The notes beneath the pieces were generated by a model. That model saw only the letters and a list, made by a program, of their open reading frames with translations. It was not told the DNA's origin and did not search any database. The position numbers and the translations under genes were made by a program. A DNA stretch of 64,000 bases from an uncultured Myxococcales bacterium. Its GTDB lineage: Bacteria; Myxococcota_A; UBA9042. This document shows, piece after piece, positions 8,892 to 13,661 of this stretch. Each line of letters starts with the position of its first letter. Position 1 is the first letter of the stretch. Location: contig CAIMLR010000002.1 of assembly GCA_903842345.1 (NCBI GenBank), positions 186,001 to 250,000 on the forward strand. Reading direction: 5' to 3'.

Positions 8892-10592
8892 ATGGCCAAG
8901 AAGAGCCGGACCGCTGGCACGCCCGCGAACCCCCCTGACGCAGCTGCAAGTAGCGCCGCGACGCGCACTGATTTGCCCGCTGCCGGCTTGCCGGACGACG
9001 CAACCGTGATGCTCGACGTTGTTCCGCTGCCGGACGACGACGGTCCGATCCCCGGCGACGATGCGACCCAGATGCTGCAGGCCGTGATCCCGCCCGTGCT
9101 GGCCGCCGCGCCGATCGCCAAGCCGCCCGTCGCCAGCAAGCCCGCCGCGCCAGCGAACAAGCCCGCGCCGAAGTCCAGCGCGCCTGTCCGCGACCCGTTT
9201 CCGCAGCCGGCCGACGAGCCGATGACCGGGCCGCTTGGCTTGGACGTCCGCATGTTGTGGCGCGGCGATACCCACGCAGCGCGCTTCTTTCCGCGCCCGG
9301 TGCCCGTGACGCTCGGCGAGGATGGCACGTTTGCCCTGCCGCCTGACGCGATGGGCAAGAAAGAGCACGAAGTCACGCTGCTCGTTGAACCGCACGCGAC
9401 CGCGGGTTTTGCCCTGCGGATCGACAATCCCAACGCCACGGGCAACCTGCTTGTCGATGGCAAGAGCTACGATCTGGCGGCTATCCGCGCGGGCACTGAG
9501 AGCCTCAAGGGCCCGGCCATCCCGATTACGGCGACGACGCACGCCTACATCCAGTTTGACGAGTTCACGTTCCTGCTGAGCCGCGCCGCCGTGCCGCCGC
9601 CGCCGCCGGTGAGCCTGTGGGACCGCGAGAACACGATTTTTCTGCTGTGCCTGCTGCTGGCGCTGGCGTTCATCGGTGGACCGCTGTTTGCCGGTTTCAA
9701 CTCGGCCGAGTTTCGCAACCGCGCCAAGCTGAGCTACCTGGAGCAAGTCGAGCAGGATCTGCGCAAGCCGGAGACGATCGAAGTTCTCATCCAGGAAGAA
9801 AAAGCCAAGGAAGAGAAGCCCGAAGAGCTGGCCAAGGAAGCGGACAAGAAGGAAGCCGAGGCTGCGCCGCTGCAGGCGCCCGCGCCCAAGGAAGAGAAGA
9901 AAGCCGAGCAGGTCAAGGACGAGCTGGACAAGCTCAATGAAGAAGACCGCAAGGCCAAGGTGACCGACATCGTCAAGGACGAGCTGGCCAGGAACACCGC
10001 GGCGATTGACGACGCCTTGAAAGATGTGGGCGGACCGTCGACGAAGCTGTTTGCGGAGGATGACGGTTCGAGCGGTCAGCCGATCGCCGGCGTGGCGGCG
10101 GATTCCAGCGATCGCGCGGCGGGTGCGTTGGGCGGTCCGGGCGGACGGCGTGGAGCGGGCGATGGCTCGGAGACCGGGCGGCAGGTCGCGTCAGGCTTGG
10201 GCAAAGACGCCAACGCGGGCGGCAAGGACCCGAACCTGGAAGTGCACGAGAAGAAGCAGAGCTTGGTGCGCGTCGGCGGCAGCGTGGGCGACACGGCGGG
10301 CGAATTGCCCAAGGCCGTCATCCGCGCCTACATCGCGACGAAGATGGGCGCGATCAAGGCGTGCTATCAGAAGGGACTGCAAAGCAATCCGGACCTGAGC
10401 GGCAAGATCAAGGTCAAGTTCCTGATTCAGCCCAACGGCGCGGTCAATCCGGCCAAGGTCGACGAATCGACGATTGGCAACGACAGCGTGGAAAGTTGCG
10501 TGTTGAACAACGTCAAAGCATGGAAGTTCCCGCAGGCCAAGGGCGGCGGCGTGACGACCGTCGTGTATCCGTTCGTGTTCGCATCACACTAG
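8892..10592 (+). CDS. GltG/PglI-like gliding-motility protein with AgmX/TonB-like C-terminus
   Basis: A 566-residue trans-envelope protein. Residues 1-110 are Pro/Ala-rich. Residues 115-230 look like an FHA-like beta domain (VTLGEDGTFALP, then IDNPNATGNLLVDG). A single membrane helix lies at about 249-268. It is followed by a charged Lys/Glu coiled coil (about 280-375), a Gly-rich linker, and a C-terminal AgmX/PglI domain (about 470-566, GAIKACYQKGL and FLIQPNGAV) of TonB-C type. The architecture fits GltG/PglI of the Glt gliding and energy-transduction machinery, where such proteins link an inner-membrane motor to the cell envelope. The motor proteins (AglRQS) are not in this window. Confidence 0.7.
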   Translation: MAKKSRTAGTPANPPDAAASSAATRTDLPAAGLPDDATVMLDVVPLPDDDGPIPGDDATQMLQAVIPPVLAAAPIAKPPVASKPAAPANKPAPKSSAPVRDPFPQPADEPMTGPLGLDVRMLWRGDTHAARFFPRPVPVTLGEDGTFALPPDAMGKKEHEVTLLVEPHATAGFALRIDNPNATGNLLVDGKSYDLAAIRAGTESLKGPAIPITATTHAYIQFDEFTFLLSRAAVPPPPPVSLWDRENTIFLLCLLLALAFIGGPLFAGFNSAEFRNRAKLSYLEQVEQDLRKPETIEVLIQEEKAKEEKPEELAKEADKKEAEAAPLQAPAPKEEKKAEQVKDELDKLNEEDRKAKVTDIVKDELARNTAAIDDALKDVGGPSTKLFAEDDGSSGQPIAGVAADSSDRAAGALGGPGGRRGAGDGSETGRQVASGLGKDANAGGKDPNLEVHEKKQSLVRVGGSVGDTAGELPKAVIRAYIATKMGAIKACYQKGLQSNPDLSGKIKVKFLIQPNGAVNPAKVDESTIGNDSVESCVLNNVKAWKFPQAKGGGVTTVVYPFVFASH

Positions 10593-10637: not shown

Positions 10638-11495
10638 ATGTTCTTGCGCGCTTTGCCCCTGCTGCTCGTCACCGCGCTCGCGGTCCTTCCAGCGTGCGAT
10701 GACACGGAGAAGCGCTTTGTCGCGGCGAGCAACCTGGCCGTGGAAGCGCTGGAACACGATGACCTGACCCGCGCTGAGAAGTTCCTGAATGAAGCGCTGC
10801 TGTTGCGGCCAACCGACGCCGAGACGCTGTACTACCTTGGCGCGCTGCAGCTGAAGCGCGACAAGCCCAAGGATGCGGCCGATGTGCTGCAGCGGGCGGT
10901 GGCCGCGGACCCGCAATTCGCCGACGCGTGGCTGAATCTGGCCAAGGCGCGCTACGACCTGCACGACGCCAAGGGCACGCTCGAGGCGGTGCAAGCGCTG
11001 CTGAAGCTCGATCCCGGGCATCCAAACGGCCACATGCTGGCGGCGCGCGTGGCGATCGATTCCAAGGACCGCGTGACGGCGGACAAGGAGCTGCGCGCGG
11101 CGATCGCGGGCGATGCCGGTTTTGCCCCGGCGTACGTGTTGCTCGCGCAGGTCTATGGCGATGTTGAAGCTTTTGAAGCGGCGCGCGACGTCCTGACCGA
11201 AGGCCAGCGTTTTGCCCCGCAGAGCGTGGAGATCCAGGAAGCTCTGGGCCTGACGTGGCTGGATCTGGGCCGCCCGGACCGCGCCAAGACCGTGCTCGCG
11301 GCGGCGGCGGCGCATCCCAAGGCGCGACCGGGTCTGCACCTGAATTACGCCAGCGCGCTGTTGCAGTTGGGCGAGAAGGACGCGGCGATTCAGGCGCTGC
11401 GCACGTTCATCCTGCAATCGCAGGGCACCGCGCACCAGAACGACGAGGCGGTGCAGACCGCCCTGCGGATGCTGCGGCACTTGAAGGGCTCCTAG
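10638..11495 (+). CDS. TPR-repeat lipoprotein
   Basis: A 285-residue predicted lipoprotein with signal MFLRALPLLLVTALAVLPAC; the lipidated cysteine is residue 20. The rest is helical hairpins typical of tetratricopeptide repeats (for example ALLLRPTDAETLYYLGAL and AADPQFADAWLNLAKARY), about seven repeats. The ATG at 10638 has a good ribosome site (GGGGAGGT, 10626-10633). It lies 45 bases after the GltG-like gene on the same strand, so co-transcription is likely and it may be a scaffold for the same envelope complex; that role is inferred. Confidence 0.8.
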   Translation: MFLRALPLLLVTALAVLPACDDTEKRFVAASNLAVEALEHDDLTRAEKFLNEALLLRPTDAETLYYLGALQLKRDKPKDAADVLQRAVAADPQFADAWLNLAKARYDLHDAKGTLEAVQALLKLDPGHPNGHMLAARVAIDSKDRVTADKELRAAIAGDAGFAPAYVLLAQVYGDVEAFEAARDVLTEGQRFAPQSVEIQEALGLTWLDLGRPDRAKTVLAAAAAHPKARPGLHLNYASALLQLGEKDAAIQALRTFILQSQGTAHQNDEAVQTALRMLRHLKGS

Positions 11496-11499
11496 GCGT

Positions 11500-11649
11500 G
11501 TGTCGGAGAACCTCCGACACATTCCGCCCAAGCCGCGGCTGCGGCTTGGCAGCGGCGTGAAACCACGCGAATTCACTTCGCGGGGTTCTTGCGCCGATGA
11601 CCCAAACACCGAGCTGGGAGCCGGTCGGAACCATTTTCCGACAGGCTCC
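11500..11649 (+). other. Four consecutive RNA hairpins (structured intergenic element)
   Basis: Four inverted repeats follow one another in this 150-base tract. H1 is 11500-11508 with 11512-11520 (9/9 pairs, 3-base loop). H2 is 11528-11536 with 11541-11549 (9/9, loop GGCT). H3 is 11561-11571 with 11577-11587 (10/11, loop TTCAC). H4 is 11617-11630 with 11636-11649 (13/14, loop CCATT). No T-tract follows H1, so it is not a simple terminator. It lies 28 bases before the start of the cysteine-rich lipoprotein, as a 5' leader or a separate small RNA would. An open frame runs through it from 11500 but is unlikely to be translated. Confidence 0.65.
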
Positions 11650-11676
11650 TGGGCCCGCAGCTATCGGAGACAGTTC

Positions 11677-12795
11677 ATGCTTTGCATTCGCACCGGCGTC
11701 GCCCTCTTGGCGTTGACCGCCCTCGCCGCTTGCGGCACCAGCACCACGAGCACGACCACCGGCGCGGATGCGATCGACGACGCCAGCACGGCGACGGACG
11801 CGACTGGCACCGATGCCGCCACCGGCACGGATGCGACAGCCGACATCAAGGACGTCGCTACCAAGGACGTCCCCGCGCCCAGCTGCGCATCCCGCGTAGG
11901 CGCGTACGCGATCGACGGCACGTGCACCGGCGGCGCTTCCTCCATCACGTTTGGCTGCATGCTGGCCAAGGACTGCGAACTCACCTGGGTCGGCGACTAC
12001 CGCGCGTGGAGCGGCCCGCTCAAGGGCAACGACTTCACGCTCGCCAGCGCGGACGGCTCGGAGAACTTCACCGGCAGCTTTGATTCCGCCAGCACCGGCT
12101 TCTACCACTACGACAACGGCGGCCTGACCTGCGATGCGACAATCGCCTACGTTGATCCGACCGCGGCGGACAGCCTGTGCTGCGACGTCTTGACCAATGA
12201 CTGCAAGAGCGGCGATGCCTGCGTCGTCGTGCAGGAGACCGTCAATACCGTGCCCGTCCTGACCACCGGCTGCGTGCCGCTGGCCGCAAGCCCGACGGCC
12301 GAAGGCGCCGCTTGCACCCAGTCCGCGACCGAAACCGGCTGCTCGGTGGGCAACCTCTGCGTGCGCAACACCGGCAGCACCGGCGCGGACGGCACGTGCC
12401 AGCACCTCTGCCAACAGGTCAGCGACTGCAAGGGTGGCCAGCAGTGCGACATCGTCGCCGACGCGCCGCGCGCTGGTCTCTGCGACAAGGCGTGCGCGCC
12501 ATTTGCCGATGAAGCCGGCGGCGACGCGTGCCCCACCGGCCAGAACTGCCTGCCGACGCTCATCTCCGGCGACAAGTACGCGCGCGCCATCAGCACTGCG
12601 TGCGGCAACGCCGGCACGGCGACCGCGGGCCTGAAGTGCGGCAATGGCGTCGCGTGCGGCCTTGGCCTGGTCTGCGTGAAGAGCGCGTGCACGCCGATCT
12701 GCGACACGAAGCACGCCTGCGCCAAGGGCACCTGCACCGGCTTTGGCCTGCCCAACGCCAGCAGCACGCCGGCTGGATTTGGCTACTGCCAGTGA
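11677..12795 (+). CDS. Cysteine-rich lipoprotein, function unknown
   Basis: A 372-residue predicted lipoprotein: signal MLCIRTGVALLALTALAAC, lipidated cysteine at residue 19, then a Thr/Ser/Asp/Ala low-complexity linker. The body contains over 20 cysteines, many in short CxxG or DCxxGxxC spacings resembling the disulfide-rich modules of Myxococcota surface proteins (SDCKGGQQC, EGAACTQSATETGC). I chose ATG 11677 because it gives the signal peptide and has CGGAGA upstream; the in-frame extension back to 11500 crosses the hairpin tract. The stop overlaps the protease start (GTGA, 12792-12795), so the two are translated together. I do not recognise a function. Confidence 0.75.
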   Translation: MLCIRTGVALLALTALAACGTSTTSTTTGADAIDDASTATDATGTDAATGTDATADIKDVATKDVPAPSCASRVGAYAIDGTCTGGASSITFGCMLAKDCELTWVGDYRAWSGPLKGNDFTLASADGSENFTGSFDSASTGFYHYDNGGLTCDATIAYVDPTAADSLCCDVLTNDCKSGDACVVVQETVNTVPVLTTGCVPLAASPTAEGAACTQSATETGCSVGNLCVRNTGSTGADGTCQHLCQQVSDCKGGQQCDIVADAPRAGLCDKACAPFADEAGGDACPTGQNCLPTLISGDKYARAISTACGNAGTATAGLKCGNGVACGLGLVCVKSACTPICDTKHACAKGTCTGFGLPNASSTPAGFGYCQ

Positions 12796-13661
12796 AGACG
12801 CTGTTGGGGCTGCTCCTGCTGCTCGTCGCGCAACCCGCGGCGGCTTGGGATCAGTACCGCACGCTGCCGCCCGGCGACAACGGCGAGCCGCGCGGCTGTG
12901 GGATTCGCTGGGCAGCCAACGAGGTCCCGCTGGCGCTTGAAGCGACGCCGTTGGACGGGCTGGTGACGGTCGACATCCAGGCCATCGCGGCTGCGTCTGG
13001 GGCGACGTGGCAGAATGTGCGCTGTGGCCTGTGCCAGGTGTGCCAGAACGGCCAGGAAGCGCCGCAAGCGTGCGCGCTCAATCCGCTGGGACTGCAACTG
13101 CGGTGGTTGCCGCGCGGCAAGCCCACGGTCATCGGCGCCACGTGCACGAGCGTCAAGTCGAACGGCCTGTGCGACACCGTTTCCGGCAACGGCAACTGGG
13201 TCAACATCGTCCACGACAAAGAAGTTTGGCAGGCGCAGGGCGTCAGCAGCCTCGTTGTCGCGCTGACCGTGCTGACCTACGACCGCACCGCCGGCGAGAT
13301 CCGCGACGCCGACGTGTTGCTGGACGATTGGGGCCATGACTTCTGCGTGGCGCCGGATTGCACGTCCGGGGAATACGACCTGCAGAGCACGCTGACGCAT
13401 GAGTTCGGCCACGTGCTGGGGCTCGATCACACGACCGATCTGGAGGCGACGATGTACGTCGGCGCCGACCCGAAGGAAAGCAAGAAGCAGACGCTCAATG
13501 ACGACGACATCAGCGGCATTTGCCACGCCTACCGCACCACGTGCTACGCCTGCACGGACGCGCCCGCGCCGAGCGGCTGTCAGGCCGGCAGCATGGGCAA
13601 CGGCTGGAGTCTCCTGCTTTTGGCGCTCGTTTGGGCTAGAATCCGCCGCGCGCGCAATTGA
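12792..13661 (+). CDS. Secreted matrixin-type zinc metalloprotease with MYXO-CTERM-like tail
   Basis: A 289-residue secreted protein with a GTG start overlapping the previous stop. The signal peptide is residues 1-18. The zinc site HEFGHVLGLDH (residues 203-213, HExxHxxGxxH) with a following Met-turn (EATMYV) marks a metzincin, matrixin-like protease. Six or more cysteines suggest disulfides. The last 30 residues contain a Cys, a Gly/Asn/Ser bend, a hydrophobic helix (WSLLLLALVW) and an Arg-rich end (ARIRRARN), the layout of MYXO-CTERM sorting tails that are thought to be cut by a myxosortase. Substrate unknown; coupling to the cysteine-rich lipoprotein suggests a partner. Confidence 0.82.
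   Translation: MKTLLGLLLLLVAQPAAAWDQYRTLPPGDNGEPRGCGIRWAANEVPLALEATPLDGLVTVDIQAIAAASGATWQNVRCGLCQVCQNGQEAPQACALNPLGLQLRWLPRGKPTVIGATCTSVKSNGLCDTVSGNGNWVNIVHDKEVWQAQGVSSLVVALTVLTYDRTAGEIRDADVLLDDWGHDFCVAPDCTSGEYDLQSTLTHEFGHVLGLDHTTDLEATMYVGADPKESKKQTLNDDDISGICHAYRTTCYACTDAPAPSGCQAGSMGNGWSLLLLALVWARIRRARN

Follow-up and report, generated by a model that had tools for sequence, protein, structure and literature searches.

The hairpin tract at positions 11492-11652 (+ strand) of the window, the 64,000-nucleotide stretch of DNA from an uncultured Myxococcales bacterium analysed here, is very probably one insertion of a short, non-coding and non-autonomous mobile repeat of the MITE or BOX type, inserted at a CTAG and mobilised in trans. 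The data that support this are the dispersal of the element, its bursts in copy number, its CTAG boundaries, its intergenic location, the empty orthologous junctions, and the covariation of its inner stems between species. We conclude that this is a previously undescribed family of genomic parasites, known in kind, whose multi-hairpin fold is unusually well conserved; no matching description of a CTAG-bounded or myxobacterial intergenic repeat, nor of the element family, was found in the open-access literature.

In agreement with the original prediction, a mechanical inverted-repeat search and the predicted fold both place four hairpins in this tract, all given here on the + strand. Hairpin 1, the left terminal hairpin (11499-11521; TGTGTCGGAG AAC CTCCGACACA), has arms at 11499-11508 and 11512-11521 with 10/10 pairs and a loop of 3 bases, one pair more than the 9/9 first given, while all other stem and loop counts stand. 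Hairpin 2 (11528-11549) consists of a 9 bp stem (11528-11536/11541-11549, 9/9 pairs) with the 4-base loop GGCT, and has the conserved core CGCGG(C/A)TGCGG. Hairpin 3 (11550-11599) is built from an outer stem (11550-11557/11592-11599), which is apparent in the predicted fold, an internal loop, and an inner stem (11561-11571/11577-11587, 10/11 pairs) closed by the 5-base terminal loop TTCAC (conserved GAATTCACTTC). A linker (11600-11616), which is A-rich in relatives, leads to hairpin 4, the right terminal hairpin (11617-11649; GGAGCCGGTCGGAA / TTCCGACAGGCTCC), with arms at 11617-11630 and 11636-11649, 13/14 pairs and a loop of 5 bases.

The extent of the whole dispersed element, 161 bp, is based on the empty orthologous junctions, a comparison of boundaries with 49 copies, and the paralogues in the genome. 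The place had been predicted correctly, but the true unit is slightly larger than the proposed 11500-11649. Its edges in the window, CTAG at 11492-11495 and CTGG at 11649-11652, correspond to the CTAG...CTAG of better-preserved copies. The statement that no stem matches another in sequence does not hold for the terminal hairpins: hairpins 1 and 4 have related arms, with 75% complementarity between 11491-11510 and 11634-11653, and in relatives a shared start CTAGGAG..TGTCGGA is possible for both.

The hairpin density, which had been described as unusual, is indeed so. Counting stems of at least 9 pairs with at most one mismatch and loops of 3-6 bases, 13 hairpins were found in the window, 4 of them within one 160-base stretch, whereas the densest 160 bases in each of 40 Markov-simulated windows contained one hairpin in 23 runs, two in 16, and three, the maximum, in 1. 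Compared to dinucleotide shuffles, the fold has a z value of -5.42 on the + strand and -5.45 on the - strand, and 0/200 shuffles equal the tract.

In the element's own genome, five covariance-model matches at E<=0.01 were found. The paralogues on contigs C49 (92% over 130 bp) and C34 (81%) are accompanied by partial copies on C5 and C35, and the copies adjoin genes unrelated to the lipoprotein gene that follows the tract in the window, e.g. a TfoX-like gene and uvrA (named by eye). With a covariance model built on hairpins 2 and 3, the element was detected in 14/22 genomes of a single family of uncultured Myxococcales, with none in 8/22. By this model there are at least 150 copies in G018, 74 in G016, 58 in G013, 30 in G002, 16 in G006 and 13 in G004, while eight further family genomes carry 10 or fewer each. 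A sample of G018 chosen without regard to the element gave 45 matches in 781 kb; 5 clear copies are present in 400 kb of G016. Extrapolation from the 781 kb sample to 5.8 Mb gives ~330 copies for G018, which illustrates how far the DNA between genes of uncultured myxobacteria can be filled by a short non-coding repeat whose sequence turns over while its fold stays. Identical copies occur inside one genome, many of them at contig ends, which points to recent amplification.

The element was not detected by DNA search in 31 other genomes of the same class and phylum. A scan by pattern across 84,980 species gave true matches in records of uncultured Myxococcales or Deltaproteobacteria, the rest being chance matches, apart from one odd title. 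The non-Myxococcales matches L040, L055, L059 and L067 are missing stems or spacing and were taken as chance. The element is also present in the record CAMDBH010000006.1 (L048), whose title names a Klebsiella pneumoniae MAG. This record appears to correspond to contig 6 of G005, a genome placed in the myxobacterial family, and it seems to be mislabelled.

An alignment of the copies shows a common plan across relatives, which consists of CTAG, hairpin 1, hairpin 2, the two-part hairpin 3, the A-rich linker, hairpin 4 and CTAG. Among the 49 copies with both edges, CTAG is found at the left edge in 44/49 and at the right edge in 40/49, bounding the terminal inverted repeats GGAG..TGTCGGA / TCCGACA..CTCC at both ends. 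The flanks of these 49 copies are mutually unrelated, and outside the CTAG they show no direct repeat beyond chance. Most G018 copies are 207 bp long and those of G016 181 bp, with an overall range of 161-219 bp. According to a simple and rough codon-usage caller, which calls ~75% of the DNA coding, 33/33 G018 copies are intergenic; the genes next to them point both ways, and the orientation is mixed. Several copies of a second dispersed repeat family (CTAGAGACCCGACCAATTAACG..., beginning CTAGAGACCCGACCAATTAACGCCGAACCTCAAAGAATTCCCAAACAAAACGGAG) adjoin the element, at either of its ends, via one shared CTAG, as would be expected if CTAG is the insertion target.

This second family has ~18 matches in the sampled G018 DNA (L140:5175, L178:18285, L180:6146, L192:2268, L197:6060, L209:16534 and others). 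A third CTAG-ended palindromic repeat, CTAGTAGGCGAAACC...GGTTTCGCCTACTAG, was seen in G016 at L222:9306-9381, adjoining a solo unit similar to hairpin 1 at 9380, and also beside an element copy in L229. Solo terminal hairpins, mostly CTAG-bounded and without the inner module, lie between genes at L222:7951-8006 and 9380-9437 (G016) and at L006:1501-1529 (own genome, C35); they are either remnants or separately mobile units. In one copy (L144:8867 onwards, G018), tandemly arrayed GCTAGCCGCCGGCCACGCCCCCAGATCTGGC units stand at the CTAG in place of hairpin 4. The tetranucleotide itself is strongly depleted in G016, with 103 occurrences in 400 kb against a Markov expectation of 330. G018, which is rich in CTAG-ended repeats, shows no such depletion, with 1210 against 1252 in 781 kb. 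Another high-copy dispersed repeat, at L138:4459-4807 (G018), has dozens of matches in G021 and G016 and is unrelated to the element.

In design and behaviour, the element stands nearest to the pneumococcal BOX and RUP repeats (PMC3049150) and to other bacterial MITEs (PMC2229807). BOX, RUP and SPRITE of Streptococcus pneumoniae are small, non-coding and interspersed, have a strong secondary structure and are judged parasitic; BOX is modular, with about a hundred copies per chromosome, and the repeats are often clustered and inserted into one another (PMC3049150). The element has the same small size, interspersed non-coding nature and strong secondary structure, a likeness of design only, for which no sequence relation is claimed. 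A BOX element is defined by its boxA-boxB-boxC sequence modules. While the terminal repeats of BOX and RUP pair with each other, each end of the element forms its own CTAG-bounded hairpin, with two further hairpins between them. Bacterial MITEs such as Correia/NEMIS, ERIC, RUP and CIR are ~100-200 bp long, non-coding and mostly intergenic, with TA termini and stable stem-loops, and ends in common with an autonomous transposon are known for few of them (PMC2229807). Likewise, the element is non-coding and intergenic at 161-219 bp, reaches hundreds of copies by extrapolation, and ends in inverted repeats whose termini carry 5'-TA-3', inside the CTAG. It differs from these MITEs in being GC-rich, in its covarying inner two-hairpin module, and in that the inspected Y1, DDE_3 and DDE_Tnp_1 loci did not show its ends.

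The element could also be a classical MITE that belongs to a DDE transposon (IS630/Tc1-mariner or IS5-like) targeting TA or CTAG, with GGAG..TGTCGGA as the terminal inverted repeat and with incidental inner hairpins. This is possible, if on the unlikely side; the inverted repeats, the TA at the termini, the length of ~160-220 bp and the non-coding sequence resemble the listed bacterial MITEs (PMC2229807). The search for a partner enzyme covered three families, namely Y1 (RAYT/IS200), IS630-type DDE_3 and DDE_Tnp_1. According to the title of a 1991 report by Tenzen and Ohtsubo, as listed among the references of PMC2170065, IS630 is said to prefer the TA within CTAG, which would agree with the boundaries of the element. 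However, DDE_3 matches number 0 in G018, the genome with the most copies, and in G006, and 1-3 in G002, G013, G016 and G021. None of the DDE_3 and DDE_Tnp_1 loci examined is flanked by a pair of matching element ends, and IS630 and DDE_Tnp_1 were hence rejected as partners. A self-BLAST of 1.2 Mb of G018 and G016 revealed no transposon-sized long repeat with element ends. Furthermore, covarying inner hairpins and constant loops are unexpected for a passenger interior.

REPs are palindromes of 20-50 nt with an unpaired foot, GTAG or CGTC, and are linked to RAYT (PMC8266576, PMC3116915, PMC3733652). The element shares with REPs and REPINs a constant tetranucleotide foot on its palindromes, intergenic bursts, and solo as well as composite forms (solo hairpins at L222:7951-8006 and in the C35 copy), so that its terminal hairpins could be two inverse REPs moved by a RAYT (HUH, Y1) transposase. 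The absence of a target duplication outside CTAG and the two RAYT-like genes in G018 would fit, and single-strand recognition would explain the covariation. We nevertheless consider a REP/REPIN-type element unlikely, since the defining features, an unpaired GTAG or CGTC foot (PMC3733652), a short length and an association with RAYT, were not observed: the foot is CTAG at both ends and usually paired, the unit comprises four hairpins in 161-219 bp, and no link to RAYT genes was found at the loci examined. Y1 genes are present in most family genomes, but their counts do not follow the copy number of the element; 13 copies occur in G004 without any Y1 gene, and 4 Y1 genes in G011 without any copy. 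Neither the ends nor the core of the element were found beside the Y1 genes examined, and two RAYT-like loci of G018 have repeats of 26-42 bp in common with other places in that genome, other than the element. On these grounds RAYT was rejected as partner. The RAYT-like proteins of G018 (L127:700-1773 and L130:1189-2637) are long, ~300-480 aa, with weak Y1_Tnp matches; further such loci occur in G013, G020, G007, G008 and G011, with up to 15 matches in G013.

The partner enzyme may sit in an unsampled part of the genome, belong to a family outside Y1, DDE_3 and DDE_Tnp_1, or have been lost. For the mobile repeat proposed here, copies would be moved in trans by an enzyme whose gene lies elsewhere. 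As suggested by the covariation only, this enzyme may recognise the folded strand, either single-stranded DNA or an extruded cruciform, by means of its paired stems and constant loops, and it would insert the element at or next to CTAG. The structure would be kept because only well-folded copies spread, and a copy once inserted would then drift. We regard it as decidedly unlikely that the element represents a separate class of mobile element, in which the spreading unit is a folded nucleic acid and the two constant-loop inner hairpins are the recognition domain for a predicted recombinase or transposase; this enzyme would insert at CTAG and act on several repeat families of these genomes that end in CTAG and are otherwise unrelated.

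The conservation of the fold was evaluated with 44 distinct sequences from across the family, in an alignment that favours structure since it was fitted to the model. In the inner hairpins, 91.9% of the cells pair, and double-sided changes occur at 24/28 pairs of hairpins 2 and 3. Doubly changed cells number 271 versus 75 in shuffles, with 0/500 shuffles reaching any of five measures, and the signal is gone when the pairing partner is slid by 1-3 columns. An independent MAFFT alignment of 16 sequences showed double changes at 17/28 pairs and a covariation score that 0/500 shuffles reached. Compensatory changes in the stems, which the original prediction had asked for, were thus found, and not stems varying without compensation, the outcome it had named as contrary. 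The terminal hairpins are hardly alignable in sequence between subfamilies, but all of them are near-perfect palindromes, with 12-26 pairs each.

Within G018, 56 stem cells are changed on one side only, 4 of them so that a Watson-Crick pair forms again, versus 8 changed on both sides. From the covariation between species together with the one-sided decay within one genome, we read the structure as maintained in the spreading source elements, not at individual insertion sites. The same comparison separates structure for spreading from structure for the host; for REP, BOX and ERIC elements, this distinction usually stays unsettled. Templated repair of imperfect palindromes is another way in which pairing could be restored, with no selection involved. 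Hairpin-templated mutation is a known mutational process for quasi-palindromes, and the pairs change mostly from Watson-Crick to Watson-Crick with few G-U intermediates, as template switching would produce without any selection for the fold. Template switching as the source of the covariation is still very doubtful, as the decay inside G018 is mostly one-sided and unrestored, and as it would explain neither why the loops are constant nor why hairpin 3 keeps its two-part design.

The upstream gene, encoding a TPR protein (10641-11495, +), served to locate the orthologous junctions. Its TAG stop codon (11493-11495, +) lies inside the left CTAG boundary of the element, whereas the four orthologues end in TAA or TGA. 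Orthologues with 87-90% identity are present in all four congeners (G001, G002, G003 and G004), each with a lipoprotein start 3' of it, and the hairpin tract is absent from the TPR/lipoprotein junction in 4/4; two of the four orthologous lipoprotein genes start ~20 bases past the upstream stop codon. The ribosome-binding site of the lipoprotein gene in the window (CGGAG and ATG, 11665-11679, +) is outside the element and common to the orthologues without it. As the junctions of the four congeners are empty, the element is either an insertion in the lineage of the window or was lost in all four. These four, the empty junctions compared, are too diverged to read a TA or CTAG duplication.

The tract had been proposed to be a structured leader or regulatory element of the lipoprotein gene, or a new small RNA class, and covarying pairs upstream of homologous lipoproteins had been predicted. 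Such pairs do not exist, since all four orthologous genes are without the tract; a conserved cis-regulatory leader is ruled out for the same reason, and the other copies lie between unrelated genes in either orientation to their neighbours. The strong fold with its covariation, the constant loops and slightly more G-U than A-C exchanges in the stems (31 versus 19) would be in line with a structured RNA, be it leader, attenuator or small RNA, acting on the neighbouring gene or in trans, but this is most improbable given the empty orthologous junctions, the mixed orientation, the mostly uncompensated decay of single copies, a G-U excess too small to name the strand, and the lack of Rfam 15 matches in the window at gathering cut-offs, where the best of the far sub-threshold matches scores 24.6 bits against a cut-off of 55. 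A new small RNA class is likewise not favoured, also because both strands fold equally.

As part of the mobile-repeat explanation as a whole, which we hold with good confidence, the copy beside the lipoprotein gene is a passenger, perhaps with an incidental effect on the transcript of the upstream gene, as a hairpin at its 3' end. Densely packed hairpins in front of a gene need not be a riboswitch-like leader, and a comparison of orthologous junctions decides this quickly. Further downstream, an open reading frame at 12793-13661 overlaps the end of the lipoprotein gene and encodes a secreted protease-like protein with a hydrophobic C-terminus and the sequence HEFGHVLGLDH, a zinc metalloprotease motif as judged by eye.
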